64,000 nucleotides of DNA from the NCBI GenBank assembly GCA_002713215.1, contig PAVO01000007.1:62001-126000 (forward strand), given 5' to 3'. This document shows positions 9,603 to 59,138 of the stretch, one piece after another (the first letter of the stretch is position 1; each line of letters begins with the position of its first letter). The DNA comes from Crocinitomicaceae bacterium. GTDB taxonomy: Bacteria; Bacteroidota; Bacteroidia; Flavobacteriales_G; Salibacteraceae. A program made the translations under genes and the position numbers. The notes beneath the pieces were generated by a model. That model did not search any database and was not told the DNA's origin. It was given only the letters and a program-made list of their open reading frames with translations.

Positions 9603-11069
9603 TTAAATTACGTCAGCAGTTGCATTTGCACTTGCGGCACTAGGGAGAGCGCTCTTCTTATTAATATCAGGCACCAACTTGTCCCATTTGCTCTTATCTT
9701 CCCATGTCTCGTGAGCAATGTAGTTAGTGTGTGTTTTAAACAAATCAAAGTCGTACGCTCGAATACCTTCGATTAACTGTGGTGAAATCACACGGAATCC
9801 GAACGTCGATTCAGCCAGATAGTGTGACCAGCTAGCACAAGGCTCAACGAAGCAACTTCTACGCCCCTGTTGAGACAGGACATAAAATAGGTCTCTATCT
9901 ACTTTCTTCACCCACAACATCTCACCTGATGAAAGTACACCATACTCCCAGGCACGTTCCATCAATGCATAAAACACAGTTTTGACGTAGCCATGAGTAA
10001 GTAGAATTTCCTTAACCATGCGAGTGCCCTTCTCGAACATCTCTTTTTCTGAATCCAGTGCTTCCAAGCTAGAAATTAGCGGATCGTAAGGTTCATCAAA
10101 TTCGGTTGCATCAAAGAATGGGCGTTCGAAGTCATTGCGGTACATTTCTATAATTCTATTTACTTCAGCCTCGATTTCTTTACGCATCTGCTTTTTAGCT
10201 TTACCCTCTTTATTGAACAATGCCTTCAAGCCTTTTTTTGCGATATTCGTTTCAGCGATATTGTAATCACCCATCAATCGGTTAAGTAAGCGCGAGTCTT
10301 TAACTCGACCATAAATATGCGGTGCTAATACAGCTAACACACACTTTTCATTGAAAGTAAGATCATCAACGCCTCGCCATGGTCTCCCCAGCTCATCCAT
10401 CAAGGTCAGGTATGTTTTCTTTCTATCAAGCGTAAATTCCAACCTCTCACGCTGCGTGATGAGAGCACGGCGCACTTTCTTGCTCGTTTTAAGTAACCCA
10501 TGCTTCTTAAGCCAACTCATTGGCATCGTTGCCATTGCGTACCAACCGCTCTCAAGGCTGGTCTCCTTGCTTATTTTCTCCATTATTGGCGCTACTGGCT
10601 TGATGTATGGCCAGATCTCCATTTGAGAGCGAGCAAAACTATACATTGCTTGCCCTTTACCCGGCTTATCGATCAGACCATCCTTTCTCAACGCTTCTTT
10701 GGTGATCATGTAAATTATCGCCGGCAATAGGAATGGACCGAAAACAAGCTGTGTTACCGTATTCATACTGTGGTATTTCTTTATACCAACATCATCGTAA
10801 ATGTAGTATTCAGCGTAATCTTCCGCATGAAAAACTAAATCGTGATACATAGGTTCAATGAATTGCCTAACGGTATCGCTGTAAAAGAAAATAACGTTAC
10901 GAACAGGCTCTGGTATAGAGTTAAGTGCAAAGAAAATCCATTTCTTAATCGGGTACCATGCTTCGACATAGAAAAACATTGCAGCCACAATCGAGCCCAG
11001 TGCGAAGATAAGGAAGATACCAAGCCATTCCAACTCGACATCGCGACTGTTTGATTCCTGATTACTCAT
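9603..11069 (-). CDS. dotM: Type IV coupling complex protein DotM/IcmP (TrbA-like)
   Basis: 488 residues. Two N-terminal transmembrane segments (about residues 15-35 and 105-123) precede a large cytoplasmic domain. The C-terminal half matches the DotM family signature: GRPWRG near 228-233, HGYVKTVFYALMERA (359-373), GVLSSGEMLWVKKVDR (377-392), then GRR..FVE and SHYLAE (402-420). In Legionella Dot/Icm and IncI plasmids this protein partners the coupling ATPase DotL (TrbC) to select substrates for secretion. Its presumed partner DotL is encoded about 39 kb away at 49886-52564, an unusual separation. Start supported by AAGGAT 8 bases upstream. Confidence 0.9.
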   Translation of the reverse strand: MSNQESNSRDVELEWLGIFLIFALGSIVAAMFFYVEAWYPIKKWIFFALNSIPEPVRNVIFFYSDTVRQFIEPMYHDLVFHAEDYAEYYIYDDVGIKKYHSMNTVTQLVFGPFLLPAIIYMITKEALRKDGLIDKPGKGQAMYSFARSQMEIWPYIKPVAPIMEKISKETSLESGWYAMATMPMSWLKKHGLLKTSKKVRRALITQRERLEFTLDRKKTYLTLMDELGRPWRGVDDLTFNEKCVLAVLAPHIYGRVKDSRLLNRLMGDYNIAETNIAKKGLKALFNKEGKAKKQMRKEIEAEVNRIIEMYRNDFERPFFDATEFDEPYDPLISSLEALDSEKEMFEKGTRMVKEILLTHGYVKTVFYALMERAWEYGVLSSGEMLWVKKVDRDLFYVLSQQGRRSCFVEPCASWSHYLAESTFGFRVISPQLIEGIRAYDFDLFKTHTNYIAHETWEDKSKWDKLVPDINKKSALPSAASANATADVI

Positions 11070-14892: not shown

Positions 14893-14979
14893 AGCGCACC
14901 CCTGCAAGAATCCGTTAATAGGGAAAATACTTGCTGATACTAACACATTATGGGTAAACGGACGTTTTACGGGGTGCAA

Positions 14980-19659: not shown

Positions 19660-20382
19660 TTAGTTGTAAACGCTGATCAAACCGGCAATCATCTTGTTTG
19701 CCGAATCGTAATCAGACTTATCTTTATGGCTCTTTCCTGAGCCTTGCTTTAGTGCAAAATCCTGAAGCTCTGCATGCGCTTGGAGCGCCAAGAACTTCAT
19801 ATAGATACGATGCACTTCTTTGTCAGGGCTAGAGCTAACCAACTCCGACAAAATCTTAAACACTTCAACCTTTTCAGCAGGAGACATGCGTCCCAACTTG
19901 ATCTCAACGTCACAGAAAGAAAGCATTGCCTTACTTTTGAACGGGGTCTTTTTCCCAATCAGATTCTTGAGAATTTTTTTCGCTTCATTGAGGTCGTAGA
20001 CAGACTCTTTAGCTTCATTCTTATGGAAGCCTTGCATATGAATCATGGCGCGATAATAGTCAGCCATAGGTTCACGTCCCTCAACAGAAACGAATAAATC
20101 CTCAGCTTTGTACGAGTCTTGAGTTCCAAGAATGCCGAACAGGAAGCAACGCCCTCGTTCCGCTACAGCCCAAGAGTCATCCATGCTTGCTAATTTACCC
20201 AAGCATTCTTCAGCTTTCGTTTCGGAGAAATAAGGGCTGTTCTTGTTACCAAACACAAGGTACTTAGAACGCTCTACATCTATCGTCTGCTTTGTCATAA
20301 CGGGCACGATCAAGTCGTGCGCTTGCTTATACTGCCCCTGCCGAATTAACGGCAGGACTTTTTCGTAAACTGTATCGGACAT
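19660..20382 (-). CDS. TPR/SLR-like helical repeat protein
   Basis: 240 residues from ATG 20382; only one base separates this start from the stop of the sigma-factor gene, so the two are likely translationally coupled. The longer frame would run into the sigma gene and lacks support. The protein is built of helical pairs with TPR-like spacing (GQYKQAHDLI, KAEECLGKLA, RAMIHMQGF), a fold usually used for protein binding. No signal peptide. Because it follows the sigma factor so tightly, it might be a sigma regulator, but that is inference. Confidence 0.65.
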   Translation of the reverse strand: MSDTVYEKVLPLIRQGQYKQAHDLIVPVMTKQTIDVERSKYLVFGNKNSPYFSETKAEECLGKLASMDDSWAVAERGRCFLFGILGTQDSYKAEDLFVSVEGREPMADYYRAMIHMQGFHKNEAKESVYDLNEAKKILKNLIGKKTPFKSKAMLSFCDVEIKLGRMSPAEKVEVFKILSELVSSSPDKEVHRIYMKFLALQAHAELQDFALKQGSGKSHKDKSDYDSANKMIAGLISVYN

Positions 20383-20383
20383 A

Positions 20384-21943
20384 TTACTTACTCGCTCGCT
20401 TTGGTGGGATAATACCCAGTTCAATCTTGATAAGGTCCAGTGCCTTTTTTGACTCAGAGCGAACTGTCTTGTCAGTGCAACCTTCCCCCAGCTCCTTGGC
20501 GATCTCTGCATGGGTTCTCTCGCCGATGAACTTCAGCTCCAGAACTCTATATTGGCGAGAAGTCATCGCCCCTTCATCTAAAAGACGATCAGCAATTTCA
20601 ATGACCTTTTGGAATTCCGTTTGAGTAACATGATCCTCAGATTCATTTCGCACTTCATTGAAGATATCAAAGCTGACTTCATCTTCACCGTTGTGAGTAT
20701 TGACGCAGCTAATATTCACAGGGATGTTGTTATATCGGTTCATTGCCAGCTTCCAAACAACATCAGGGATCGCTTCTTTAATGGCCTTCTCCACATCTTC
20801 GCGTGAAGGGAGGCGCTCGTCTGCGTTCTTTTCCACCCAGCCTCTGAGGTAATGTAAGATAGTGTTAACTAGGTCCGTTGCATGGATTGGTATACGGATG
20901 GAATTGTTGTTTTTAATATGGCGTGAAATCTTTAGTTTCACCCAGTAGTCAGCATAAGTCGTAAACTTGGCGTTCGATCCATGAACATACATGTCACAAG
21001 CATGCATCAAGCCCTCTGCGCCTTCAGAGATTAAATCCATATAGTTCAGGCCAGGTAACTTGTTACCACCACCTTTATGGAAAAACTTCATGGCGCTATT
21101 AATGCAGCTTCGCAGGTTGGTTGAAACAAGTCTGTTTCTTAACTCTTTAATGCGAGAAGATAGCAGTCGCACGCAACGCATTATGTGCTTAGCTTCAGGC
21201 GGGGTTACGCCCTGCTTGTCAGCGAAAATATCAATGGCAGTACGCTCACCGGGAAACAAATCAGCAGTTTTACCCTTTTCCAAGTCAGCAATGTTGATGC
21301 GATCTCTCGCCACCGGCTCATATTCTTTAATCAGGCGATCTGATTGTTGTTTAATGAAGTGGGCGTAACTCAAGTTGTAAGTGTCAACGATTAGGTCAAT
21401 AAGATCATCAAAACGTTGATTAGATTTACCATCACGGTATTCTACAATTAAGTCTCTAACCGCCCCAGGAAGCTCTTTTGGGTAACTGATTGATGTACCG
21501 TCTTCAGTTTGTTTTAGCACACCGAGTAAGTGAGAAGACCCAGATGTATTATCGCAAGCGACAATCAGAGCATCTAACACTGTACTAAACCGGAGCATAT
21601 ATTTTGCAAGCTCTTTCTGACAGAATGACTTGTTTTCCGTCCACTCCGCTTGCTGCTCAGGTGTTCGTATTAAATACTGGTCGTTGTTAAGCTCTGCGCT
21701 CAGCAAGGCAAATAAGTCCGCTCCACCCGTGCTTTCTGCTTCACCAATTACCTCGTCACGAACATAGCGCTCATTAACATCGACCGCCGCCGATTTTTCA
21801 GAGTCGCTAAGTAGCCCTGCCAAGTGCTGTGATTCAGACACTGAATCGCTGCGACAATCAACGAGATCACCCAAACCGTAGGATTCTTTCGTCTCATTCT
21901 CAGCGCCAGCAACGTCCTTGTTGTAATCGTCAACATTCTCCAT
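20384..21943 (-). CDS. RpoD-like sigma-70 family RNA polymerase sigma factor
   Basis: 519 residues from ATG 21943 (AAAGGAG 6 bases upstream). Region 2 (about 270-352) is plain: RLVSTNLRSCINSA, LISEGAEGLMHACDMY, KFTTYADYWVK and SIRIPIHATDLV. Region 3 follows, and region 4 (about 450-510) has SRQYRVLELKF...THAEIAKELG...DKTVRSESKKALDLI. The N-terminal part includes KELAKYMLRFSTVLDALI, like the non-conserved region of housekeeping sigma factors, so it looks RpoD-derived rather than ECF. The RNA polymerase core-binding and -10 recognition surfaces are present. It lies inside the pilus/transfer gene run, so a likely role is directing host RNA polymerase to element promoters. Confidence 0.88.
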   Translation of the reverse strand: MENVDDYNKDVAGAENETKESYGLGDLVDCRSDSVSESQHLAGLLSDSEKSAAVDVNERYVRDEVIGEAESTGGADLFALLSAELNNDQYLIRTPEQQAEWTENKSFCQKELAKYMLRFSTVLDALIVACDNTSGSSHLLGVLKQTEDGTSISYPKELPGAVRDLIVEYRDGKSNQRFDDLIDLIVDTYNLSYAHFIKQQSDRLIKEYEPVARDRINIADLEKGKTADLFPGERTAIDIFADKQGVTPPEAKHIMRCVRLLSSRIKELRNRLVSTNLRSCINSAMKFFHKGGGNKLPGLNYMDLISEGAEGLMHACDMYVHGSNAKFTTYADYWVKLKISRHIKNNNSIRIPIHATDLVNTILHYLRGWVEKNADERLPSREDVEKAIKEAIPDVVWKLAMNRYNNIPVNISCVNTHNGEDEVSFDIFNEVRNESEDHVTQTEFQKVIEIADRLLDEGAMTSRQYRVLELKFIGERTHAEIAKELGEGCTDKTVRSESKKALDLIKIELGIIPPKRASK

Positions 21944-21964
21944 CAATCACTCCTTTGATAACGA

Positions 21965-23167
21965 TTAAAGAACAGCTTTTATGCCGTCTTCTAAGCTCAC
22001 GTCCATGTGAGCAATATGTGAATTCAATTCTTTGTAGACGCTTCTTACGTCTTTATTTTTTTCGATTAACGCACTAGGGTTAACAAACTCTTTCAGGCGA
22101 TCTTTCTCGTAGTTTACGATTGCCTCACCGGTCAACTCACTCGATTTAATTTTTTCAGTGAGCACTACAGTCCCTTCATAACCACCAACGCAATTAGAGC
22201 ATCCATTGCCTACGCTGGCGTAGTCACCAGGCTTCAAGTTAAACCCTACTGCCAGTCGAGAAACGCCAGACTTATTGTGAGTAATTTCCTTACACTCACC
22301 ACAAAGCTTGTCTACTGAAACTCGTATCTCATAATGAGCAAGGTATAAAATTACCTCTTCCGAGCTAAATGCTGACTTGAGTTCTTCGTAAATATCAACA
22401 AAGTTCTTAGCTTCGCTCAAAATCACAACAACTGAATTGCGCCCGCGAAGTTTTCTTTGTGCATTTTCAATTGAGCTAGATGTAAGCTCTGAAGACTTAA
22501 GGACAACAGTTGGCCTTACACCGTGATTATTCGCTATAAAGTCTGGATGACTTTCAATTTCATGCGTGTCCGTACCAGCAAATACGACCAAACCACCTGA
22601 GCCGGCAGATTTGATTGTCTCGTTGATTTCCTCAATATTCCAGATTGGCTCGTTAGATGGGATGTCGATATTTGAGCCATCTAACAAAGGTGACTCCACC
22701 CCTCTTAGTTCGATGTGGCGAAAGGCGTTCTGGTTTGTTTTGACCATTAGGCCGCCATCACTTACAGAAACTGAGCAAACAGGTTTGCCTTCCATGCTTC
22801 TTGCGTAATGTGATAGAGCTATCGTGGCGAATACCGATACGTTTTTGTTGTCTGAAAAACTTGAACGTGATGCGATCAAGCCGAAATCGCCGTTCAGAAC
22901 CTGTTCGTTAATAGCCTCTGAAAACCACTTCTTTTGAGAGCTAGAATAGAACCCGTGCTTACCGAAAAACCCCGCTTCTTCCTTGTTGATAGTCAGGGTT
23001 TCGATGCCAAACTCACTAACAAGGATTTGGTCAATCTTATGTTGACCCCAAATAGAGGTCCGGTTTTGGTACCACTCAATAAATGAGTTGAATAGTTGCG
23101 GCTCTGCTTCCGTGCCGATGAATAACGAATCATCAACTGCACTGAGCCTACCTAGAAGAATGGGCAC
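21965..23167 (-). CDS. GspE-like protein lacking Walker A (pseudo-ATPase)
   Basis: 400 residues from GTG 23167 with AAGGA upstream. The C-terminal part has the zinc region of GspE/PilB ATPases: KLCGEC, then GNGCSNCVGGYEGTVVLTE, the counterpart of LCPHC...GC..C...GYKGRTGI. The segment that should carry Walker A reads GGLVVFAGTDTHEIES where active relatives have GLVLVTGPTGSGKTT, so no P-loop remains; GEIRD and the His box are also absent. It is therefore probably catalytically dead. It could bind or regulate the two active ATPases of this element. Location just upstream of the sigma factor is notable. The family call rests on the zinc region and the aligned strand before the lost P-loop. Confidence 0.62.
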   Translation of the reverse strand: MPILLGRLSAVDDSLFIGTEAEPQLFNSFIEWYQNRTSIWGQHKIDQILVSEFGIETLTINKEEAGFFGKHGFYSSSQKKWFSEAINEQVLNGDFGLIASRSSFSDNKNVSVFATIALSHYARSMEGKPVCSVSVSDGGLMVKTNQNAFRHIELRGVESPLLDGSNIDIPSNEPIWNIEEINETIKSAGSGGLVVFAGTDTHEIESHPDFIANNHGVRPTVVLKSSELTSSSIENAQRKLRGRNSVVVILSEAKNFVDIYEELKSAFSSEEVILYLAHYEIRVSVDKLCGECKEITHNKSGVSRLAVGFNLKPGDYASVGNGCSNCVGGYEGTVVLTEKIKSSELTGEAIVNYEKDRLKEFVNPSALIEKNKDVRSVYKELNSHIAHMDVSLEDGIKAVL

Positions 23168-23248
23168 GATACAATCCTTGTATATGTGTGAGTTAATCCT
23201 TTAACTTCGCGAATTATATTCTCATACTGAAAATAATTCAAGACCTCA

Positions 23249-24936: not shown

Positions 24937-25335
24937 TTATTTAGCTTTTGGCTGTTTATAGGCCAAAACCATTCTAAGGCCATTTTCGGGTAACATGCAC
25001 TCGTCGGCCGTTCCCATGCAGAAGCTGGTCAGCTCTAAATTGTCACACGCCAGAATAACCGATTCCACGGTAGCAAATGTAAACTTAGGATCATCAAAAT
25101 TAAATGATGATATTTCTACAATATGCTTCTCTGGCTTTTTAGCTTCAAAACCTTTGTGTTTAGCAAAGTTTGCGCACTGCCCAACATCTTTAGAACGCTG
25201 GAATTCAAAATCAGGTTCGAAACGAGGTTCGGTGTAGTACATGTAAGAGAAGAATAAAGCCGCAGCAGCGATACAGTAAAAAATTACACTAATAACAACA
25301 CGGTCATTCTTTAATGCTTGAAACTTATCAATCAT
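24937..25335 (-). CDS. Single-pass membrane protein of the pilus operon
   Basis: 132 residues: short cytoplasmic N-terminus, one membrane segment (about residues 14-32), and a periplasmic domain with four cysteines (QCANF, LACDN, SFCMG, ECMLP) likely paired. Start overlaps the stop of the upstream gene as TAATG. Bitopic proteins of this size occur between the secretin and pilin genes in type IVb pilus operons (for example PilO/TcpD-like), but I cannot assign a family. Confidence 0.62.
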   Translation of the reverse strand: MIDKFQALKNDRVVISVIFYCIAAAALFFSYMYYTEPRFEPDFEFQRSKDVGQCANFAKHKGFEAKKPEKHIVEISSFNFDDPKFTFATVESVILACDNLELTSFCMGTADECMLPENGLRMVLAYKQPKAK

Positions 25336-26258
25336 TACTGGTTGCCCCCATTAACAACGACTTCAGACGCAGGGCTTTCCTGTTCTAGTGCTTGCGTATT
25401 TTCATTTGCAATCGTTTTAACCTTCGTCAATTGCATTAATGACCCATCGGGTTTGATAGACTGGCTGAAAATTGTATTTTCAAATTCACCCTGTTTCTCT
25501 AACACCAGGTACCAGCCACCAATTTTCGCATACCGAATTGCCCTCAAACGCATTTCGTCGGTAGAGCCAGCACGACGCAATAAATCAATGGCCATATAAT
25601 TTTTTGGCGTATAGTGAGTCTGGCTAATTACTTCCTGCGTTTGGTTGTAAAACACGTATTTGAATAGCGCAGCTCCCCCAAACGTTAAAAACGACATGAG
25701 CATCACCATTACGCTAATGTGGTAAAGAGCGTACCCTTCGACGTAAAGTTGCTGCACTTTCTGTGAGCGCCCAGCAATATCAATTACTGTCTCTTTACCC
25801 TCACTAGGCAGCCCCTCTTCTGTCCACATTGTTTCAACATGGCCATTGTTATTTTGAATAAGCGCATTCTGACCTTTATCCATTGGGATCCAAAGTTCAG
25901 TGCACTCAGGGTCGCGAAATGCTTTAAGCACTTTTTCGATATAAGAAAACCCATCACCTTTGTATTGAAGCTCGCTAATGTAGCCACTCCCTAACGTTGG
26001 ATGTTTAACGACTTTCTTAATTCGATAGCTCACACCTGACTTACCAAGATCCATATCTTTAGCTTTCGAAAAGATTTCGGATTTAGCATTTTCCATTACC
26101 GTCTTTTCGACACCTGAGTGAAAATCAATAAAGACCTTCTCTGCTGGCTTGTCTACGTGTTTTCGAGCCCCGAAAAGCCCGCTTGTTCGACGTGGGGTCG
26201 CCGGCTTTTTATCTGCCGGCTTTTTGTCATCCACTGGTAAGTTTGCAGCATCCGTCAT
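25335..26258 (-). CDS. Bitopic inner-membrane protein (pilus assembly, PilO/TcpD-like position)
   Basis: 307 residues. A Lys/Pro-rich N-terminal tail leads to a cytoplasmic domain (about 40-175), then one membrane segment (about 185-207) and a periplasmic domain of about 90 residues. AAGGAG precedes the start, and the gene lies 6 bases after the secretin gene. Topology and place suit a linker between the cytoplasmic ATPase/platform and the periplasmic part of the pilus machine. No diagnostic motif. Confidence 0.65.
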   Translation of the reverse strand: MTDAANLPVDDKKPADKKPATPRRTSGLFGARKHVDKPAEKVFIDFHSGVEKTVMENAKSEIFSKAKDMDLGKSGVSYRIKKVVKHPTLGSGYISELQYKGDGFSYIEKVLKAFRDPECTELWIPMDKGQNALIQNNNGHVETMWTEEGLPSEGKETVIDIAGRSQKVQQLYVEGYALYHISVMVMLMSFLTFGGAALFKYVFYNQTQEVISQTHYTPKNYMAIDLLRRAGSTDEMRLRAIRYAKIGGWYLVLEKQGEFENTIFSQSIKPDGSLMQLTKVKTIANENTQALEQESPASEVVVNGGNQ

Positions 26259-26264
26259 TGCTTA

Positions 26265-27872
26265 TTACTCCTTACCAGTTTGTCTAAATAGCTGTACTGT
26301 TGGACGTAAAAGGACGAACATGGCCGACTTCGACATTTGCTTCTCAATGTGCTCAGAGCCTTCAAAACTAAACATGTTCGGGTTTGTACGACTTTCAATA
26401 ATTGTGTCGTAAATAACACCACCCAAGAGTTTCGTTTCACCCACTTTCATACGAACAGTCGTTGGGAATTTCTGTGTTTGAATGTCAGGTCTCTTAATCT
26501 CGTTACCTGTTGCCGAGGTTAACTCGGTATAGCCAACCAGGTTTTCCAAAACGATATCAAGGTCGATCATGACCTCTTGCGCTGAAGAGTCATAGAAAGG
26601 CGTAAAGCCTACCTTTATGCCCGTGGTCTTTTCTGATGTTTCTGTGTTCTGGGTGGCAACAGGTGATAGCTGTCCCTGTAAAGTCGTGCTCTCAGATTCA
26701 ATGTAAGGAATTGCCTTTTGAGAACTGATTTCCGTCTTCTTGCCAGTGATTGTTTCAAGGAAAGCTGATTGCTCCGCTCGCGTAGAACCATACTGGTTTA
26801 ACCAATCCATAATGACGTTTACGCTTACGTTTTTGTTAGAAAGCCCAAGATCCAGACCTTCTGGTTTTAGCCAACCATAACTCTTAATGTCATCAACTGA
26901 TGAGCCAGAGTAGCGTGAGTCGTACCCTAACTCTGGGAAGTTCCCATCTGAATCAGAGTCACTTGAACTACTGCTGTTACCAGTGTTTGAATTGCTGTTT
27001 GAGTTGCTGTTTGAGTTGCTGTTTGTACCATTTGTGCTCTGGTTTGTTAATTGCTGCAACCAATTGGCGATTGGGCCACCTGCATATGCTGATTCTACAG
27101 AACCAAGAACAACATCAAGTTCACCCCAGTTGAAACCGTCTTCTAATGTCTCATCAAGAGACACCGTCAAAACAGTTACTTGCATCTTGATGCCGGCATA
27201 GTTTTCGTAAAAACGATCTAGGTAATTTACGATGGTCTTCTGCTCATGGTTTGTTGCTTTATAAATCAAAGAACCAGTAAGCAAGTCCGTTTTTGGCTCT
27301 TCAGCGCCAATCGATTGAACACCAGCAGCAACAGATTCAAGAACTTCCTCATTACTCGGCATTGATGCCAAGTAAACAGACTTACGTTCTGCTTTAATTG
27401 TGCCATCGCCAATATAGTTAAAGCTGATATTGTGAAGTCCTTCAATCATGGATAGCAGTCCACCCACTGTCCCACTATAGTGCTTGATCGTAAAAGGTAG
27501 GTTCGCTATCTTTTGGTCTTCTTCATCGTTACCAAACATTAAGTTAATTTTGTAAGGGTAAAGGTGCGCTGCCATGTCTTGCAGGGTCGTACCTTTCGTC
27601 ACAGACATTCCGTAGATTTTTTTGTCCGCAATTTCCTTAGGTACCACTTGAGAGCGTTTTACGAAAACATCATTTTCTCGGTCAAAGTAAATGACGGCGG
27701 GATCATTAGTTGCCCAGGTTTCTTCCATTTCCTGAGCGCGTTCCTCTACCTGTTTGTCAACATTGTCCATTGTTAACTTTTCAGAGTTTCGTAATTCGGG
27801 ATTGTTGGCACATCCACCAACCAGTAACGTCATAGCAATAGACATTGCCAATAAACTGCGTTTACCCATCAT
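26265..27872 (-). CDS. Type IVb pilus lipoprotein secretin (PilN-like)
   Basis: 535 residues. Lipoprotein signal with lipobox VGGC (Cys21), then N-domains (about 80-190) and a C-terminal secretin-like beta domain (about 380-535) including TGIKVGFTPFYDSSAQEVMIDLDI and a KVGETKLLGGV turn before a final LLRPTVQLF. It would form the outer-membrane channel for the pilus, as R64 PilN and TcpC do. A Ser/Asn-rich linker, encoded by 12-base tandem repeats, interrupts the middle (about residues 280-310). Start overlaps the stop of the upstream gene. Confidence 0.82.
   Translation of the reverse strand: MMGKRSLLAMSIAMTLLVGGCANNPELRNSEKLTMDNVDKQVEERAQEMEETWATNDPAVIYFDRENDVFVKRSQVVPKEIADKKIYGMSVTKGTTLQDMAAHLYPYKINLMFGNDEEDQKIANLPFTIKHYSGTVGGLLSMIEGLHNISFNYIGDGTIKAERKSVYLASMPSNEEVLESVAAGVQSIGAEEPKTDLLTGSLIYKATNHEQKTIVNYLDRFYENYAGIKMQVTVLTVSLDETLEDGFNWGELDVVLGSVESAYAGGPIANWLQQLTNQSTNGTNSNSNSNSNSNSNTGNSSSSSDSDSDGNFPELGYDSRYSGSSVDDIKSYGWLKPEGLDLGLSNKNVSVNVIMDWLNQYGSTRAEQSAFLETITGKKTEISSQKAIPYIESESTTLQGQLSPVATQNTETSEKTTGIKVGFTPFYDSSAQEVMIDLDIVLENLVGYTELTSATGNEIKRPDIQTQKFPTTVRMKVGETKLLGGVIYDTIIESRTNPNMFSFEGSEHIEKQMSKSAMFVLLRPTVQLFRQTGKE
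26989..27024 (-). repeat. 12-bp tandem repeat inside the secretin gene
   Basis: Three adjacent units of GAGTTGCTGTTT type (the first differs at one base) encode the Asn-Ser repeats of the secretin linker. The unit length is a multiple of three, so copy-number change would alter linker length without breaking the frame. Confidence 0.75.
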
Positions 27873-28456
27873 TAATCATCCTTGTTTGATAATGGTAACG
27901 GACGGATCCCAGCGTCTCTGCTTAGGATATTTTCCTGTTCTTCGCTTTCACCGATTTCAGCGCCTTTACGAACAGCTTCAATGGCTTTTTCAAGATTGGA
28001 TTTAGACTCTGCCATAATGTCTTTATATTCAGCTTCAGACATTACTCGCTTGAACTTCTTGGTATCGTAATAGTCGTAGTCGTTCTTAAGCTTGGAGAAA
28101 ACAACGTACATACCCGATGTCACACCTAAATAGCGATCACCAGATTTCAGAAGGACGAACTTTTCTCCGTCAATTTCAACTTCATTTACATCTGGAATTT
28201 GCATTTTGGTTGCATCGACAGCCACCTTGATCATTTCAGCAACAGTCTCTCGTTGTTGTGCACTTAGCTTTTCATCACGCACAACGATTTGCTGAACTGG
28301 CTCAGGTTTTGGCGGAGCTTTAGGCTTAAATTCGAAAGGATTACTGCTATTTGCAGTGTCGGAAATGATCCCGTTATTATCTTGGGCTAGTGATTGTTGG
28401 CTGATAGCAAGCGTAGCCAGCAATAGCCAGGTGCGGGTGTGCAAATAAGAGCTCAT
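27872..28456 (-). CDS. Small exported protein next to the secretin gene
   Basis: 194 residues from ATG 28456 (AAAGGAA upstream; the longer frame starts 24 bases earlier without need). Signal peptide ends near SLAQ (about residue 25). A Pro-rich segment (PKAPPKPEP) is followed by a small domain (about 85-150) with VEIDGEKFVLLKSGDRYLGV and a helical C-terminus. Position just before the secretin suggests a secretin-interacting partner (PilM/PilP-type), but this is inference. Confidence 0.65.
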   Translation of the reverse strand: MSSYLHTRTWLLLATLAISQQSLAQDNNGIISDTANSSNPFEFKPKAPPKPEPVQQIVVRDEKLSAQQRETVAEMIKVAVDATKMQIPDVNEVEIDGEKFVLLKSGDRYLGVTSGMYVVFSKLKNDYDYYDTKKFKRVMSEAEYKDIMAESKSNLEKAIEAVRKGAEIGESEEQENILSRDAGIRPLPLSNKDD

Positions 28457-28539
28457 TTGTATTCCTTTACAAAACGTCAAACGTGAAATCCATTTCTAAA
28501 CGCATCTATAGTAACAGATTATTACTGTAGGGGCATTTA

Positions 28540-31870: not shown

Positions 31871-31955
31871 GATAGCGTCCCTGCCCCAGATAGATTTAGT
31901 ATTCGGATACTATCATAATCGAGGAAGTTGGACGCTTTTCGGCCTAATTATTTCT

Positions 31956-33006: not shown

Positions 33007-34239
33007 TTATCTAACCTGATCGGCCAGTTCGAAACCACCAATCATTGGTAGCGCGAATAACAACGTTAATATAACAACAAATGGCAACAACAGACCGCCG
33101 GCGAAAATCCAATGCACCCAAAAAAGGCCGCTAATGCCATCTTTATGCTTCTGCAAGAACTGATCCGACTGTGCACCAAACACGTCAGCCATCTCTTCTA
33201 GGGATGTAGAACTTTTCAATAACGCTCTATCTAAATCGCTGAAACTATGAAAGCCATCCACCCAATCTTGACTACCTTCTTTAAGGAGTCCCTGTACACG
33301 TTCAAGGTCGGCTTTAAGAACGCCATCCTCTTGTTCCTGAGAAACGTATTTGAACGCCGCCATCTGCGGAACACCTTTGCTCATTAACTTTTGAATCTGA
33401 TAACAAGCAACGAAATTCAAACGACTCAAAACAACACCATTAACCAAAGGCATTTTAAGAATTACCTTTTGAGCACGCTCAGCGGAAACGAGATCAGGAG
33501 CAAACATTAGGAACAGTAATACAGAGAACCATGCGCTAAATATAGCGGCCGCAGACCACCCTAAAACAGCCAATTGGTATTTAAGATCATTAAGCATATC
33601 AACCGAACTACCCTTCTCTGGCATCATGGCAAAGTAATTAACTTCCTCCATTAAGTCCCAGCCATACCAGTGGGCACCCATAGACATGAGACATGCAATA
33701 ACAAACCAAAGCCCTGACGAGTAAACCTTCATCATTTGACCTTTTTGCAGGGTTGTCATTTCACGTTCAAAATTAAGACCTTCTCGAAATGCTTCATTCA
33801 ACTTCGAAACCTTTGAGTTTGAACGAATGATAGCCACGGTTACAGATGGAAAAAACTTAGGCCCCAGCTCACCCAATGCATCAACGGGATCTTTTTGCTT
33901 AATAATTGTCTCGTAACGCAGGCGGCGACTCACTTCTCGAATAGGACCTGAGAAGTTTTGAATCATTACAGATAGCGCTTCATTTAGATTGTAACCAACC
34001 AACATGTTCGAAATCGTCTGCAAGAACTCCATTCTACCTTGAGCATTTAGGCCTACTCGTTTGAGAATTTTTGCTTTGATCTTCGAAAATAAACCTTCTT
34101 TCATTTGAACAACGCGAATTGGACGACCATATCGCAACGCTTCGATACGTGCCGCCTCTTCATTCTGCGCATCAATTTTCTTGGTAACAAGCTGACCGTT
34201 ACTCTTCCGTGCGGTCACCTTATAAGTGATGTATTTCAT
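33007..34239 (-). CDS. Pilus inner-membrane platform protein (GspF/PilC family), set B
   Basis: 410 residues from ATG 34239. An N-terminal stretch (KYITYKVTARKSNGQLVTKKIDAQNEEAA) matches the short N-terminal domain of many PilC/GspF proteins. Then come two helical domains with LQTISNMLVGYNLNEAL and KLMSKGVPQMAAFKYV, and hydrophobic segments near residues 175-195, 230-250 and 380-402. It is the partner of the ATPase encoded just upstream and a distant paralogue of the set A platform protein at 3559-4740. Confidence 0.85.
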   Translation of the reverse strand: MKYITYKVTARKSNGQLVTKKIDAQNEEAARIEALRYGRPIRVVQMKEGLFSKIKAKILKRVGLNAQGRMEFLQTISNMLVGYNLNEALSVMIQNFSGPIREVSRRLRYETIIKQKDPVDALGELGPKFFPSVTVAIIRSNSKVSKLNEAFREGLNFEREMTTLQKGQMMKVYSSGLWFVIACLMSMGAHWYGWDLMEEVNYFAMMPEKGSSVDMLNDLKYQLAVLGWSAAAIFSAWFSVLLFLMFAPDLVSAERAQKVILKMPLVNGVVLSRLNFVACYQIQKLMSKGVPQMAAFKYVSQEQEDGVLKADLERVQGLLKEGSQDWVDGFHSFSDLDRALLKSSTSLEEMADVFGAQSDQFLQKHKDGISGLFWVHWIFAGGLLLPFVVILTLLFALPMIGGFELADQVR

Positions 34240-34262
34240 CAACCATCTTCCTTGATGTTTAA

Positions 34263-35963
34263 CTACAGAGCTCTATCTTCGATTAGGTGGCGGTGCGCCG
34301 GGAAATCTGATAGAAACTTATCTAAATCCATTCTTCCTGATGTAACAGATGAAACAGCTTTGTTAGCTTGCTCATCTTCGTAAGTTTCGAAGTCTGAACC
34401 AAACGCACTTACCATTTCTTTGCGGTCGGTCATACCTGAACGATACTTTTTGTATGCATCTTCAAGCGTACTATCCCACCACTTAGGGATGTTATAGTCG
34501 AGAAGCTTCATTACATCTTCACGCGTATGAAGATAAACAGCCTCTGAAACAACGGTACGACCTGTGTAACCTTTATCGTTACAGTTCACACAACCCTTGC
34601 CGCCGCAGTCATGGCAAACCACACGAATAAGCTTTTGAACTAAGATCCCACGTAATTGGTTTAGAATTTTGTCACGTTCAACCTTCAGGTTCTCAAGGCG
34701 TGTAATAACACCTCGAACATCTTTAACGTGAAGCGTACCCATCAACAAGTGACCAGTTTCTGCCGCTTGGAACATGATATTGGCTGTTTCCTCATCTCGA
34801 ACCTCACCAACTACCACAACATCCGGGTCTTGACGAAGAATGCTTCGAAGCACTTTCGCGAACGTAAGTTCTGAGCGCGGGTCAACCTGTGTTTGTTTAA
34901 CGTCAGAAAGTTCGTTTTCAACCGGATCTTCAATTGTATTGATTGATTGCTTGAAACGGTTGAGTACAAATCGAATGGCCGAGGCAATGGTCGTTGTTTT
35001 ACCAGAACCTGTAACACCACAAACCAGCACAATCCCGTTAGGGCTGCGAAGGGCTTTTTTGATATCTTCCGCACATGTAATACCAAGGTCATTAAAGTGA
35101 ACTTGTGAATTCTCTGGGTCAAGGATACGAATAACCAGTGATTCTTTGTTACCTATGGTCGGTAATGTTGAAACACGGTTATCAACTCGACGACCGTTAT
35201 AGTCAATTGAGAACTGACCATCCTGAGGGCGACGTCTATCCGATGGATCGAGACCAGATTCAATTTTAGCCTTCGTTACAAGCTGCAAATATTCTTCCAA
35301 ACCGCCAACACGCTCAACATACAGCTGGCCAAGGTAACGAAACTTAACGTTGTAACCTTCACGCGTCGGGTATACGTGAATATCACTCACTTTTTCTCGA
35401 ATAGCTTTACGGACTAAAATTTCAAGCAATGTCCCCTGCTGATTGCCGTAGCGCTCAACTTTTTTCAGGTACGCTAAAATGCGTGACACTTTCGCCGGTG
35501 TGAAGTAAAACTGGTGATGCGGAAAATAAGCCATCAGAGCGCGTTTGGACAACGTTTTATTCCCTAACGTTGAAAGATATACGTGCGTATCCGTAATCGC
35601 TGACAGCATAATCTTATGGCGTTTTAGAAGGGTAGCTGGGATCGACGGTTCAATAAGTTCCTTGCCAGCAAGTTCACCAGGATCAACTTTAAGACTAAGT
35701 TCAACCACTTTATCTTGCTTGATTGCACCGTGGTTCATCATTGATGTAACAAAGTCTTTGCCGTCGTAATCCATTTCTTGGAATACCTGACTTAAGAAAC
35801 CAAAGTCCATTTGGCCACGGCTATCTAAGAATTCGTAAACAACGCGCTCTAAGCCTTCGAATTTAGCAACACGTTTTTCAACGGCACCCTCATCGTAGCG
35901 ATTAACACCATAAATGGAGTCACTTCCTTGTAATTCCTGTAACTCTTCTGCTGCTTCACTCAT
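34263..35963 (-). CDS. Type IVb pilus assembly ATPase (GspE/PilB family), set B
   Basis: 566 residues with an N-terminal domain (about 1-160) and a full catalytic core: Walker A GVTGSGKTTT (316-325), Asp box IEDPVE, Walker B region DPDVVVVGEVRDEETA, His box GTLHVKD, and a compact zinc site CHDCGGKGCVNC followed by GYTGRTVVSEAV. All catalytic features of an extension ATPase are present. It follows the pilin-like genes and precedes its platform protein, the usual order in pilus operons. Closer to standard PilB/GspE than the set A ATPase, which has a large insertion at the zinc site. Confidence 0.92.
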   Translation of the reverse strand: MSEAAEELQELQGSDSIYGVNRYDEGAVEKRVAKFEGLERVVYEFLDSRGQMDFGFLSQVFQEMDYDGKDFVTSMMNHGAIKQDKVVELSLKVDPGELAGKELIEPSIPATLLKRHKIMLSAITDTHVYLSTLGNKTLSKRALMAYFPHHQFYFTPAKVSRILAYLKKVERYGNQQGTLLEILVRKAIREKVSDIHVYPTREGYNVKFRYLGQLYVERVGGLEEYLQLVTKAKIESGLDPSDRRRPQDGQFSIDYNGRRVDNRVSTLPTIGNKESLVIRILDPENSQVHFNDLGITCAEDIKKALRSPNGIVLVCGVTGSGKTTTIASAIRFVLNRFKQSINTIEDPVENELSDVKQTQVDPRSELTFAKVLRSILRQDPDVVVVGEVRDEETANIMFQAAETGHLLMGTLHVKDVRGVITRLENLKVERDKILNQLRGILVQKLIRVVCHDCGGKGCVNCNDKGYTGRTVVSEAVYLHTREDVMKLLDYNIPKWWDSTLEDAYKKYRSGMTDRKEMVSAFGSDFETYEDEQANKAVSSVTSGRMDLDKFLSDFPAHRHLIEDRAL

Positions 35964-35977
35964 TATCTGTTACATCC

Positions 35978-37645: not shown

Positions 37646-37649
37646 TTGA

Positions 37650-38123
37650 TTAATCCCCTGTGTAAACGGTTAGAGTTAGTGCATTCAAATCTTCAAGGGG
37701 AGTATCCGGTTCTGCGTTTTCTATCGCACCGCAGCTTTCATTCAAAAAGACATCGTAGCCCATGCGATCATAGGCTTGCTTCATAACGAATCGAGAGGAA
37801 CTTGTATTGCCAGCATTAGATGTCACACAGAAATAATGACCTTGCCCAGCCGTCGCATCGTAAGAGAAAGTGAACCCACCGACTTTTGGTGTAGCCACAC
37901 CGCTTTGGCGAAGCTCCTGTTCCCAGTTAGCAATGGGAAGTGTCTGGCCACTGAATTGTTGGTAATTGCTACGAGAAAGCATTAAGCCGTCGATAGATGC
38001 AGTGATCGCACCAGACTGTGCGCGCCCTTTCATACCATCAAGGTTAATTGTGTCTGGGTTTGTATGGAACACTGACATCAGCATCAGCATTAATACAATG
38101 ACCCAAATGATTTGACTTGGCAT
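37650..38123 (-). CDS. Minor pilin-like protein
   Basis: 157 residues. One N-terminal hydrophobic helix starts almost at Met1, without a leader. It is followed by a short helix and a C-terminal globular domain with two cysteines (HYFCVTSN and NESCGAI) in the place of the pilin disulphide loop. GGGAG precedes the start. Encoded between the candidate major pilin and the beta-helix pilin. Pilin family membership is inferred from layout and context. Confidence 0.62.
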   Translation of the reverse strand: MPSQIIWVIVLMLMLMSVFHTNPDTINLDGMKGRAQSGAITASIDGLMLSRSNYQQFSGQTLPIANWEQELRQSGVATPKVGGFTFSYDATAGQGHYFCVTSNAGNTSSSRFVMKQAYDRMGYDVFLNESCGAIENAEPDTPLEDLNALTLTVYTGD

Positions 38124-38240
38124 AGCAACTCCCTCTGCTCAAAACGCCGAACGCCATCTCCCTGACAGCATAAGTTGCATTATCATAACAAAATTTACCG
38201 CACTGAGCCCTTCGCTTTTTAAATTAAGTTTCAAAACGAC

Positions 38241-38266
38241 AAAAGGCCGGCTAATGCCGACCTTTT
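38241..38266 (-). terminator. Intrinsic terminator after the pilin gene
   Basis: Minus-strand stem AAAAGGTCGGC pairing with GCCGGCCTTTT around a 4-base loop, running into T-rich sequence, lies about 20 bases after the stop of the candidate major pilin. It should reduce read-through and so give more pilin than downstream proteins, a common arrangement for major subunits. Confidence 0.75.
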
Positions 38267-38287
38267 GTTACCAGGTACAAAGAGTTA

Positions 38288-38938
38288 TTACTTCTCTTGT
38301 ACGTAGTACACGAACGCGTTGTTTTCGCCAACAGTGTCAAGCAAACAGCCGCCTTCAACTTTACCTGCAATCAGGTCAGATGCACCGCTAGCAGCAACCG
38401 CTGTGAATAAATCTGTACCGTCATAAGCAGCAGAGCCATCAGTAGCGGTAAGGGCACTTAGGTCCGCACCAAACTGAGCTTCGTGCTCAACAGCAGTGTA
38501 ATCTTCACCACGGATGTTTTCGTTGATCTTTTGACAGATTTCGTCAGAGATCTTGGTATCGTTAGGAGAGGTACCAACAAGAACCAGGTAAACACCTTCT
38601 TGACCTGCGTCAACGTGAGTAGCCAAAGAAAGGTCACCGATCTCAACTTCCGCATCACCTTTCAGAAGCTTAACTTCTTCGCTTGTTAGCTCGGCAACAG
38701 CGTTATCCATAGATACTGCGATGCCGTCGTCTTCCAGATTTTCAACTAGTGACACAGTGTCAACTTGTGAAATCTTGTAAGTTTGCATTACAGCTGCAAC
38801 GTCGTCGACCTTATTGGTAAAGGCTTCAGCTTTCGCTTGCTTCTGGAAGTCGAAGTAACCGTCACCCATATTGTCAGTGAAGATTGCGCCAACAGCGATT
38901 GCCAGGATTAAGCCAAGAATAATTTTAAGAATGAACAT
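38288..38938 (-). CDS. Candidate major pilin (type IVb-like, leaderless)
   Basis: 216 residues. N-terminal hydrophobic helix (residues 2-20) begins at once, followed by a helix (QKQAKAEAFTNKVDDVAAVMQTYK) typical of pilin alpha-1 continuation. The acidic globular domain has two cysteines (DEICQKI and EGGCLLD), as in the pilin D-region. No prepilin leader with a Gly cleavage site and Glu5 is visible. It is the first gene of the pilus run, has a GGAG ribosome-binding site, a long T/A-rich upstream region and its own terminator; all fit an abundant subunit. Alternative: a membrane-anchored periplasmic protein of other function. Confidence 0.66.
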   Translation of the reverse strand: MFILKIILGLILAIAVGAIFTDNMGDGYFDFQKQAKAEAFTNKVDDVAAVMQTYKISQVDTVSLVENLEDDGIAVSMDNAVAELTSEEVKLLKGDAEVEIGDLSLATHVDAGQEGVYLVLVGTSPNDTKISDEICQKINENIRGEDYTAVEHEAQFGADLSALTATDGSAAYDGTDLFTAVAASGASDLIAGKVEGGCLLDTVGENNAFVYYVQEK

Positions 38939-39268
38939 GTATGAAATACTCCATTTCGTGTTTTAATTGGAATGCGACGTTGTCGAATTCGTTTGCATCC
39001 CTGCTCGGACTTTATCTTTACCGATTTTTCCTCAGTGGAAACTTGGAGTTTTCAAGTTCTTGTCAAATAACCACTCCCAAAACATGTTTTTCCTTATTTT
39101 TATACTGTTTTTTACAAACATTTTTTTTAATTTTTTTGTGATTTACAAGTTTGCAGTTTGAGTTCAATGATGCCGAAGCGACCACGTGTCGCGATATTTT
39201 ACAGTTTTTCGCATATCTTCGATGTCACTCAAATATGATAAAATCAGAAGTTATAGCAGGGAGGTGTT
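38939..39268. promoter_or_regulatory. 330-bp divergent intergenic region upstream of the pilin gene
   Basis: No gene seen. Very A/T-rich, with long T runs around 39090-39140, an inverted repeat TGTTT...AAACA near 39107-39121 and, on the minus strand, a perfect TTGACA with no good -10 box at the usual distance. That mismatch would suit an alternative sigma factor or an activator. It must hold the promoter of the leftward pilin operon and that of the rightward gene at 39269. Confidence 0.55.
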
Positions 39269-49376: not shown

Positions 49377-49889
49377 TTAACTTCTGAATCTTGGTGTTGG
49401 CACCTGCGATTTGATTAAAGGTTTTTGCAATTGTTCATAAACCAGATTATTCAAATCCATATCCGACGTTAACACCTCTTGCCCAGGTAAATATTTCTTA
49501 TCGATGAGCGCGTTGAAGCTCATGATCAAATCGCCATAGTCGTAACCGCGTATTCTCTTGGCAGGAGAAAGAATCTGATCTACTGCTTCCGAGAGTAAAA
49601 GGAGTTTAGAGGCTTCCCCTAACCCTAGAGCGGACGCTTCAACATCAACAGGACTCGTTACGACCCTGCATCCTGAAACCGCCTTAGGATCGCCTACAAG
49701 CTGTAATCCGGGGATACTGGTACCGTGCAACTTGTTGGAAATTGATTGAGCCATCCATACTGACAATGGTTCACCAAGAGCCGGCGACAGCATCACCGCC
49801 GGATCAATGTGCTTGCCATTTACATTCACCGCCCGTGGTGCACCCACAATGCGCAAAGCCAAATTGGTATACTCCATACCTAAGCTCAT
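49377..49889 (-). CDS. Soluble protein of the transfer module, function unknown
   Basis: 170 residues, no signal peptide; alpha/beta with an Ala/Leu-rich helix (EASALGLGEASKLLLLSEAV). AAGGAG precedes the start, which overlaps the DotL stop as ATGA. Such tight coupling to the coupling ATPase suggests an adaptor (as IcmS, IcmW or LvgA in Legionella), but the sequence does not show kinship with these. Confidence 0.58.
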   Translation of the reverse strand: MSLGMEYTNLALRIVGAPRAVNVNGKHIDPAVMLSPALGEPLSVWMAQSISNKLHGTSIPGLQLVGDPKAVSGCRVVTSPVDVEASALGLGEASKLLLLSEAVDQILSPAKRIRGYDYGDLIMSFNALIDKKYLPGQEVLTSDMDLNNLVYEQLQKPLIKSQVPTPRFRS

Positions 49890-52564
49890 ACCTTCTCCTT
49901 ATGAACGACGCGCTTGATCATGTCTTTGACCTGCTGTGAACTATAAGAAGGACTCTTCTCTTTCTTATCCTTTTCACTGACAATCGCGACGTTAGTCTTC
50001 ATACCCATGTCAACAGTGGTGTTCCGAGCAGTTAAGCTACTGACTTTTTCAACATCGACATTACGACCGCTCTTTTTCAAAAGAGCTGACTCAAGTGTCT
50101 GTAAGCGTTCTTGAATTTCAAAGGCACTTAAGTTGATGGCTTCAAGGCTATCGAAGCTGTCTTGGACACCTTTCTTCAAGCGCTGCTCTTTCTTCTGGAT
50201 GGCTGCATCAATTTTAGAGAACATGTCATCGTGATTAACAGCTGGCTTTGTTAAGGTAGGTGCCTTCTTAACTCCACTGGATGATGACAGATTTTCGTTT
50301 GCCGGGCCCAAAACAGATTGGTTTTTTTGCTCTGGAGCAGTTTCAGGTTCATCGGCGCCTTCAGGCGCTGGCCCTTGGTAACTAAACAGCTGATCACCAT
50401 CATTACCAAGTAGAATGTCATCGTCGAATATCTCATCGCTATCATCCACACCGACAGACTGCTTAATGGCTTTAGCAATATTGTGGTCAACCAATTCTAC
50501 CTTCTTGACGTGCGCTGAAAGCATGAATACAGCAAACTCAGTCTCATTTGGAACATCAACTTCAGGGTGGTCATCAATGTATCGCTCAACTTGCTCATAA
50601 GTCTTCATCTGTTCAGCAAAGGTGCTGGAAAACGTACCAATCAGACGTCGCATAGCAATTTGTTTGGCTTCCCAATCCCCATTGATTAATTCAATGTATT
50701 TTTGGTGCACGGCATTTACGCCGTTACGCATTGATTGAACAGTGCTGTATCCAGGACGACGAACTTCCAAGAAGTGGTTAACACGCGCCTTAGGTGTCAT
50801 GATTGGGTCTGCATAGAAACTCTTAAGACGATACGTCTCAGAACCATAGATTAGCGTTCCCCAACCAGCCTTTTGAGCTTTCAAGTCTCGCAAGTCGAGT
50901 ACAGGGCGCTTCTCTACGCGAGCTGTTTTAGCTTCAGTGTACTTACGACCAAAAGCAGTATCTTTTGCCTCAAAAGAATCAGCGCTAACGACATACATTT
51001 CACCAGCGGACTGGTTGAACTTCTCGTAAGTGCCCGGGTCTTCGAGCTTTAAACACCACTTCAACGTACAGTTGGCAAAGATGGTTTCAGCCTCAATTTC
51101 ATCTCCGCGCTTAAACGCAGCATAGTCTTGTCCCGCAAATAGGCATACCATATTAAGGCTTCGAACCTGAGCGGGCAAAGTTGAGGCGCCTTTTGTCGCG
51201 TATGTCCCGAATTCGTCGAATATAAGGCCGAAACTATTGATCGCCGCTGTCGGCTTACTTTCGATTACTTGTTCATAGTTACCTTCAACTCGCGAACCGA
51301 TCGCTTTCGATGATACGTTACGCGTCATTGCAATTACGATTCGACCTAAGTTACGAACACTTTGTGGTGACTTGGCAAGTGAAGGAAGAAGCACAAGAAG
51401 AATGCGTCGACGCAGTACCACATCCGTGATCGAAATGTCTGGAACCTGCGATACCGTGATATGCCTGTACTGCTCTGCGAGCATGTTGAATGTCTCGGTA
51501 TATTGCATCGTAATGTACTGAAATTGCTCTTCAGTAGCAGGGTTTTGCTTAGGATTTGGGTCGTCTGGAGTCGGTGGTTTATAGTTGATACTTTTCAGAA
51601 GTGACCATAAACCACCACGCTTTTCTTTCGGTATATCTTCGTTCATAGCTAGTTCGACAAACTCGTCTAAGCCGAAGTAGCCACGGTACGTATCCGGATC
51701 AATTTCGATGTAACCGTTATCTTTTAGGTAGTAAACGGCTTTGTTTAACGAGTTAATACCCGTTGCAGCACGACCTTCCCACATACCAGAGCCACCGCCA
51801 TCGTCTGAAGGTAGTAGGCCCCCGATAATCTCATCGGCTTCCGCCGCCGATGAATCAACTAAAAAGTTGAATGTGTTTGTAATTGTCTCAACTCGTTTTT
51901 CACCATCTTTTAAGCCAGGATCCATGAAGTTGAGAAGGTATAAATCATCCGTCCTGCCGAATGCTCTACAGATGGAAAAACACTTAGCAAACAATAGGGT
52001 ATCACCCTTGCCGTCCACGAGAATGAACCCTGACGCGTGCGTAAGGAAGTTCACGCAGATAGACACAATTGTCTCAGTTTTCCCGCTCCCTGTCGTACCA
52101 AAAATTACGAGGTGAGTCCTCATTTTGCTATCGTCAGCATGGACTTCTTGGTTTGTGTTTAACTCATGGCCGAGGAAATAGGTTGCTTCCCCTACCCCTT
52201 TGGCTGCCTTTTTAACAGGCTTAGTGAGCTCCTTAGGTGACATATCCACCCTAGAGGCAGCCCTGTTGTATTTGAGGTATTTGGGTGTACCAAACAGAGA
52301 TTTGTTTCTCTCTTGGAATCTACGGCGCTTTCTGCCCCACTGAAACGCAAAGTACGCACTCAGCATCAAGCTAACTTCAGAGAAATTCCAAAGAACAAGA
52401 GCAAACAATAAAAAGAAGATTGATAAGGCGAGTGGCGCCACTGTGTCAAAGAAGAACTTATACTTCACTTTGAACGGGCGCATATCTCGGCCTAAGCCTA
52501 GACCTGAAGACTCCCCATCATCGAACTTGATGGTATCAACACCGTTGATCCTTACTTCTGACAT
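49886..52564 (-). CDS. dotL: Type IV coupling ATPase DotL/TrbC (VirD4 class)
   Basis: 892 residues. Two membrane segments (about 40-75), Walker A FGTTGSGKTET (155-165), ILVDGKGDT after it, and a Walker B-region FGLIFDEFGTYATKG near 450 in the middle. A long disordered, acidic C-terminal tail (about 690-892) recalls the tail of DotL that binds adaptors in Dot/Icm. The GTTGSGKTE form of the P-loop is typical of the DotL/TrbC branch. It hexamerises at the inner membrane and hands relaxase-DNA and proteins to the channel. Encoded next to the DotO ATPase, 22 bases downstream. Confidence 0.9.
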   Translation of the reverse strand: MSEVRINGVDTIKFDDGESSGLGLGRDMRPFKVKYKFFFDTVAPLALSIFFLLFALVLWNFSEVSLMLSAYFAFQWGRKRRRFQERNKSLFGTPKYLKYNRAASRVDMSPKELTKPVKKAAKGVGEATYFLGHELNTNQEVHADDSKMRTHLVIFGTTGSGKTETIVSICVNFLTHASGFILVDGKGDTLLFAKCFSICRAFGRTDDLYLLNFMDPGLKDGEKRVETITNTFNFLVDSSAAEADEIIGGLLPSDDGGGSGMWEGRAATGINSLNKAVYYLKDNGYIEIDPDTYRGYFGLDEFVELAMNEDIPKEKRGGLWSLLKSINYKPPTPDDPNPKQNPATEEQFQYITMQYTETFNMLAEQYRHITVSQVPDISITDVVLRRRILLVLLPSLAKSPQSVRNLGRIVIAMTRNVSSKAIGSRVEGNYEQVIESKPTAAINSFGLIFDEFGTYATKGASTLPAQVRSLNMVCLFAGQDYAAFKRGDEIEAETIFANCTLKWCLKLEDPGTYEKFNQSAGEMYVVSADSFEAKDTAFGRKYTEAKTARVEKRPVLDLRDLKAQKAGWGTLIYGSETYRLKSFYADPIMTPKARVNHFLEVRRPGYSTVQSMRNGVNAVHQKYIELINGDWEAKQIAMRRLIGTFSSTFAEQMKTYEQVERYIDDHPEVDVPNETEFAVFMLSAHVKKVELVDHNIAKAIKQSVGVDDSDEIFDDDILLGNDGDQLFSYQGPAPEGADEPETAPEQKNQSVLGPANENLSSSSGVKKAPTLTKPAVNHDDMFSKIDAAIQKKEQRLKKGVQDSFDSLEAINLSAFEIQERLQTLESALLKKSGRNVDVEKVSSLTARNTTVDMGMKTNVAIVSEKDKKEKSPSYSSQQVKDMIKRVVHKEKV

Positions 52565-55718: not shown

Positions 55719-55761
55719 ATATTAACATATTTTGGAAGTCTCGACGGGGCGAGAGGTAGGT

Positions 55762-59059: not shown

Positions 59060-59138
59060 GATGTACTCACAAAAATCCGTTTATAATAAGGAATATATCA
59101 CAGACTCGCCGAGCGGGCGTTTGAGGGAATAACTTTTT

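Follow-up and report, generated by a model that had tools for sequence, protein, structure and literature searches.

A sigma-70-family factor in the transfer region of a giant I-type plasmid and its possible link to extended -10 promoters

Among plasmid-encoded sigma factors, SigN (ZpdN) of the Bacillus subtilis plasmid pBS32 belongs to the sigma-70 family and drives plasmid genes (PMC6751061). The closest relative of the factor described here is encoded by Alteromonas mediterranea on its 603-kb plasmid pAMCP48-600, termed a chromid by its describers, whose paper never mentions a sigma factor (PMC5217437). The literature searched contained nothing on sigma factors of these giant plasmids and no study of the relative itself, WP_071960533, which is annotated.

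We analysed a window of 64,000 nucleotides from the 372-kb contig C7 (bases 62001-126000), in which an RpoD-like sigma factor had been predicted within a conjugation and pilus locus. The predicted coordinates, 20384-21943, were exact: the open reading frame spans 21946..20384 on the minus strand, and the ATG at 21943, with an AAAGGAG before it, is the natural start (Table 1). Residue numbers given for this protein count from the TTG, ATG numbering being lower by one. The product is a genuine and intact sigma-70-family factor, with matches beyond chance to the NCBIfam sigma70-ECF superfamily TIGR02937 (65.4 bits, cut-off 42.9), a PHROG sigma family (3.2e-27), the RpoD_Cterm and RpoS models (2.6e-21 and 3.2e-20, respectively) and RpoD/RpoS structures of the PDB (down to 4.6e-16, for RpoD). 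Region 2 was present with its core-binding and -10 helices. Pfam matched regions 2 and 4, both under the curated cut-offs, and gave no match for region 3, the segment of which aligned to RpoD/RpoS. The Alteromonas orthologue cleared the Pfam region 2 cut-off (36.9 bits); the r4/r4_2 matches, weak in the window protein, were absent from it. An ECF-type factor, with regions 2 and 4 only and about 200 amino acids, was ruled out by the length of 520 amino acids and by the aligned region 3 segment. The claim of a non-ECF factor embedded among consecutive transfer and pilus genes was borne out. The prediction that regions 2, 3 and 4 are intact held for the layout, and failed for region 4.2, where the residues that read the -35 box are replaced. 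The first ~240 residues matched the Alteromonas relative alone and aligned to no RpoD in the structure search; regions 1.1 and 1.2 were not detected in this N-terminus (no Pfam r1 match). AlphaFold, run without an alignment, gave no usable model of the protein (pLDDT 36).

WP_071960533 was the sole full-length relative found (32% identity over 89%), and the same accession is also carried by the sister plasmid pAMCP49-600 of strain CP49. Region 2 was 53% identical between the two proteins, the N-terminus 27%, region 3 25% and region 4 21%, with further divergence in region 4.2. Both genes occupy the same syntenic position: of the plausible genes in the window, some 53 by our count, about 38 had a syntenic homologue on pAMCP48-600, mostly 23-55% identical. 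Pattern scans of genomic and viral contig collections found no further orthologue. Searches within the order and class to which the bin belongs were likewise negative and, because the contig sits in a Bacteroidota-like bin, they sampled Bacteroidota and are silent on gammaproteobacteria.

The sigma gene lies inside a ~100-kb region of I-type (Dot/Icm-like) transfer and pilus genes. Its predicted embedding among such genes was confirmed by domain matches and synteny, including the same placement on pAMCP48-600. The I-type components TraG-D_C, DotM_C, T2SSE and DotH_IcmK were recognized by domain and DotG by similarity; no relaxase domain was noticed among the window proteins scanned. Two stretches of the window hold pilus genes, one with an MshL-like secretin (24937-28480) and one with a platform protein and pilin-like genes (33007-38938). 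The assembly genes of these stretches had no syntenic match on pAMCP48-600, the ATPase matching a paralogue only. Since the sigma gene is syntenic and these secretin, ATPase and platform genes are not, the factor belongs with the transfer cluster and not, as had been supposed, with the pilus in the window. A separate PilS-type pilus set, just beyond the window, is common to C7 and pAMCP48-600. Also kept on the Alteromonas plasmid are a UvrD/GajB-like helicase (44428-45879, plus strand) and a DEDDh-type exonuclease (46213-47037, minus strand).

Further products of C7 are DotH, DotG, a PilS-type pilin, DnaE and a type II topoisomerase that is split. The DotG/VirB10-like protein, to the right of the window (C7 128875-136035), is repeat-rich and 2386 amino acids long, its Photobacterium homologue having 1638. 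Sixteen tRNA genes, mainly for Ser, Leu and Arg, are packed into 2.1 kb near the contig end (352.5-354.7 kb; L030 6533-8654), and pAMCP48-600 likewise bears 13 tRNAs (PMC5217437). The GC content of C7 was 0.437 and a strong Shine-Dalgarno sequence preceded 38% of its ORFs, as compared with 30% on the Alteromonas plasmid and 0 of 48 ORFs sampled from the bin (some counted twice). The bin itself appears to be Bacteroidota, with two short RpoD proteins of the MRQLKI type, many more sigma genes, the ECF ones likewise Bacteroidota-like, and a local GC content of 0.35-0.41. Judging from these sequence features, C7 is probably a giant I-type conjugative plasmid of gammaproteobacterial type, co-binned with a Bacteroidota genome. 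A second sigma factor, RpoD/RpoS-like and 403 amino acids long with a very acidic N-terminus, is encoded at ~5.0-6.2 kb (L005 1039-2250) of contig C9 (GC 0.435), which possibly belongs to the same plasmid. Three more sigma factors besides WP_071960533 are carried by pAMCP48-600.

Table 1. Positions of the sigma gene, its domains, neighbouring genes and candidate promoter elements in the window
Feature	Position	Strand	Basis or remark
Sigma-70-family factor	20384..21943	-	519 aa from ATG 21943 (520 from TTG 21946), stop 20384
Region 2, core binding and -10 (residues ~270-348, TTG numbering)	20903..21139	-	53% identical to Alteromonas protein
Motif H355-A-T-D358, contacting the extended -10 (E. 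coli sigma-70 H455..E458)	20873..20884	-	residue map
Region 4 helix-turn-helix, with D/K/S in place of the -35 contacts R584/E585/Q589	20426..20566	-	Pfam, residue map
Helical protein abutting sigma (TPR/Sel1-like by eye)	19660..20382	-	ATG one base past sigma stop; kept after sigma in Alteromonas
Gene preceding sigma; C-terminal Cys motif like GspE-type zinc domains (by eye)	21965..23167	-	kept in Alteromonas
TTGAAT-N17-TATAAT, candidate host sigma-70 promoter of sigma operon	23213..23241	-	not conserved in Alteromonas
TraD/DotL-type coupling protein of transfer system	49886..52564	-	domain match
DotM-type coupling-complex protein	9603..11069	-	domain match
Extended -10 TGTTACTAT	28508..28516	-	
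Extended -10 TGATAGTAT	31907..31915	-	
Extended -10 TGTTATGAT	38182..38190	-	
Extended -10 TGATAAAAT	39236..39244	+	
Extended -10 TGTTAATAT	55719..55727	-	
Extended -10 TGATATATT	59092..59100	-	
Extended -10 TGTTAGTAT	14937..14945	-	

Residues of the window and Alteromonas proteins were placed on E. coli sigma-70, the roles of whose positions are established. Loss of the residues that bind RNA polymerase would have spoken against a functional factor; the core contacts D403 and E407 were retained, and Q406 and N409 were altered. Among the -10 residues, Y430 and W434 were retained and the A-11 pocket was altered (E420V, R423S), while W433Y and Q437L were seen in the window protein and not in the Alteromonas one. 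Both orthologues kept H455 of the extended -10 contacts and had E458 changed to D; Alt301k, a second sigma factor of pAMCP48-600, retained H455 and E458. At positions R584, E585 and Q589 of the -35 helix, the window protein carries D, K and S and the Alteromonas protein Y, N and K, whereas all three residues were retained in PhotoPil, the C9 sigma factor, RpoS and both RpoD proteins tabulated. As read from this alignment, the -35 recognition helix of both orthologues is devoid of its reading residues.

Promoters were sought in upstream regions of C7, pAMCP48-600 and control replicons (gaps of at least 60 bp, the last 18 bp masked), with gene starts taken from a simple custom caller. On the right arm of C7, which lies beyond the transfer core, motif discovery yielded TGnTAtnAT without a -35 signal. 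The extended -10 matrix was trained outside the transfer cores and then applied to them. In the C7 core (24 regions) it marked 29% of the regions, versus 2-4% of dinucleotide shuffles and 4% of antisense sequences (binomial 3e-5), and in the Alteromonas core (18 regions) 56%, versus 4-7% and 6%, respectively (binomial 3e-9). Unsupervised discovery on the core sets alone was borderline, the motif being recovered at width 14 and not at 9 or 10. Control replicons displayed little or no enrichment (real/shuffled: pAMDE1, from the same species as pAMCP48-600 and with no sigma gene, 4/4; Photobacterium GJ3 replicon, 3/2; 882-kb plasmid of V. parahaemolyticus, 10/8; FeN3W, 2/3; pMPPla107, 3/3; p1_508, 9-12 versus 4-6; E. 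coli, 7/3 in 28 regions). Conversely, TTGACA/TATAAT pairs (at least 10/12) were not enriched in the C7 or Alteromonas core but were enriched on the V. parahaemolyticus plasmid (real/shuffled 28/7), FeN3W (20/1) and pMPPla107 (13/1). Neither promoter class was clear in pAMDE1 and GJ3, which are hence weak controls. The extended -10 class spans cargo and transfer genes plasmid-wide. An unusual promoter preference, as originally suggested, was supported by the residues and by this motif search, although the TTGACA first invoked for it contributed nothing: it exists near a pilin-like gene (39066..39061, minus strand) with no -10 box at the right distance, as claimed, but the window has only 34 copies of TTGACA where chance would give 56, so that it carries no information.

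Other repeated elements were encountered during this search. To the left of the window (C7 1-44000; L015-L017), some 29 palindromes of the form ACAACA-N4-TGTTGT, mostly ACAACAAAAGTGTTGT, each precede a short plus-strand gene, with TGGTATnATG about 12 nt further on; by chance, 0-2 would be expected in the whole of C7. They look like the operator array of one regulator over a cargo or early-gene region beside the transfer cluster, and, since the transfer core has none of them, were rejected as sigma targets there. Analogous arrays at cargo promoters, with other sequences, occur on two further plasmids. On pAMCP48-600 (NZ_CP018025.1), from ~80 kb, AATCA-N3-TGATT was located in the apparent -35/-10 spacer, with ATCA-N3-TGAT in 78 of 297 upstream regions. 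On p1_508 (NZ_CP090497.1; 50-340 kb), GTTGCGnTnTGT was found ahead of TATAAT in 72 of 287 upstream regions. It seems that an operator of its own is spread across each giant plasmid.

Our tentative preference, held at slightly less than even confidence, is for a functional plasmid-encoded sigma factor of giant I-type plasmids that would direct host core polymerase to plasmid promoters of the extended -10 kind. Its region 2 would bind the host core enzyme, and the factor would steer it to TGnTAtnAT promoters without a -35 box, those of transfer and pilus operons included. The factor would have retained -10 and extended -10 recognition and lost -35 recognition, the plasmid promoters having dropped the -35 box. 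Against this reading count the altered A-11 pocket and, in the window protein, W433Y and Q437L, the spread of the promoter class over cargo genes, the further sigma factors that both plasmids carry or may carry, and the ability of host sigma-70 to read extended -10 promoters. What was observed is an intact gene, a conserved place and region 2, extended -10 residues retained and -35 residues lost, and one promoter class on both plasmids, all from two orthologues only; we infer polymerase binding, the choice of promoters, the order of the two steps and any part played by the helical neighbour. As to that order, host sigma-70 may fire the sigma operon first and so start a cascade. The candidate promoter of the operon was the sole 10/12 match among the 24 core upstream regions, and is given little weight because Alteromonas does not show such a promoter. 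The prediction of a TPR-like protein at once after the sigma gene was correct for the abutting, co-conserved gene, but neither its TPR family nor its suggested role as a regulator found support; TPR models gave no match in this protein. AlphaFold without an alignment gave a poor model of it (pLDDT 46). A sigma/TPR pair shared with Photobacterium was not supported, the neighbour showing no similarity to the Sel1-like neighbour there. It is a candidate sigma partner by position only.

It is possible, if on the doubtful side, that host sigma-70, or another sigma factor of the plasmid (the 403-aa factor of C9; Alt301k), reads the extended -10 promoters, the window factor then being a transfer switch for a narrow promoter set unseen in the sequence. 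Ordinary host sigma-70 can use extended -10 promoters, second sigma genes do exist, Alt301k having both extended -10 residues, and a plasmid-wide promoter class fits such a reader; however, pAMDE1, from the same host species, lacked the enrichment, and the C9 factor and Alt301k retain some or all -35 residues, so that alone they would not account for the absent -35 box. An improbable explanation is a decayed factor without initiation, or a competitor or anti-host factor occupying core polymerase: the poor conservation of region 4 and the several changed -10 residues would suit it, but the frame is open over ~515-520 codons in both plasmids, region 2 and the extended -10 residues are conserved, and the place is retained between plasmids whose proteins are ~32% identical.

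In a tree of 29 sequences covering sigma regions 2-4, with RpoD, RpoS, RpoH and FliA included, the window and Alteromonas factors formed their own clade (100/99), beside another pAMCP48-600 sigma factor (92/83). The best tree placed this clade outside RpoD, RpoS, RpoH and FliA, while joining it to RpoD was not rejected (p-AU 0.24). Since region 1 was not detected and the RpoD residues of the -35 helix were replaced, the window factor should not be called RpoD, and the "RpoD-like" assignment to group 1 was not supported. A captured RpoD copy (group 1/2) backing up host sigma-70 is very improbable: its best matches are RpoD/RpoS models and a Photobacterium pilus locus does hold an RpoD-derived factor, but the protein stands apart from RpoD in the best tree and shows neither region 1.2 nor the -35 contacts.

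The supposed rarity of element-borne sigma factors was not supported: region 2 sigma genes above the curated cut-off were present on 7 of 11 large plasmids examined (CP49 twin excluded), several within ~20 kb of transfer genes, and were not found on the plasmids of Methylibium, Piscirickettsia, V. parahaemolyticus and Xanthomonas or on pAMDE1. The Photobacterium damselae plasmid p1_508 carries a 621-aa RpoD-derived factor in a pilus locus (98/93 with RpoD), and four Pseudomonas giant plasmids share another, of 225-249 amino acids, ~20 kb away from the gene for the coupling protein. Giant I-type plasmids thus repeatedly carry sigma factors close to their transfer genes, and the window factor is a distinct variant. 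From these branches, which are long, giant I-type plasmids may have recruited sigma factors from several clades. This recurrence, seemingly from different clades, was undescribed in the literature searched. If our preferred reading is true, a specific loss in a sigma factor, that of -35 reading, would be tied to a matching promoter change on its carrier element, a rarely visible instance of co-evolution between a sigma factor and its promoters, and would help to explain the control of transfer by very large plasmids across hosts. With a sigma factor of its own, the plasmid could control its genes in part independently; that a whole giant-plasmid lineage has its own promoter code, in which a -35-blind sigma factor and extended -10 promoters partly decouple transfer, pilus and cargo transcription from host sigma, is rather unlikely.

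Among known systems, WP_071960533 of pAMCP48-600 and pAMCP49-600 resembles the window factor in gene order, in DNA-reading residues retained and lost, and in the promoter class of its plasmid, but is just 32% identical. The factors of Photobacterium p1_508 (621 aa) and of Pseudomonas FeN3W, pMPPla107, pBASL58 and pPL1 are also sigma-70 proteins of giant I-type plasmids, several of them encoded within or close to the transfer or pilus cluster, and belong to other clades; unlike the window factor, that of p1_508 is RpoD-derived with its -35 contacts retained, and, unlike those of C7, the promoters of FeN3W and pMPPla107 are of the TTGACA/TATAAT kind. The mode of action of the window factor would resemble that of other alternative sigma factors found on mobile elements, SigN among them. 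SigN differs in being LexA-controlled, in causing cell death after DNA damage and in its host phylum, and no transfer locus is described in the text consulted (PMC6751061). With E. coli RpoD and RpoS, the window factor shares the layout of regions 2, 3 and 4, D403 and E407 as contacts to the core and the extended -10 contact H455, and it differs from them in its undetectable regions 1.1 and 1.2 and its lost -35 helix residues. In its proposed use of a -10 element without -35 contacts, it recalls gp55 of phage T4.
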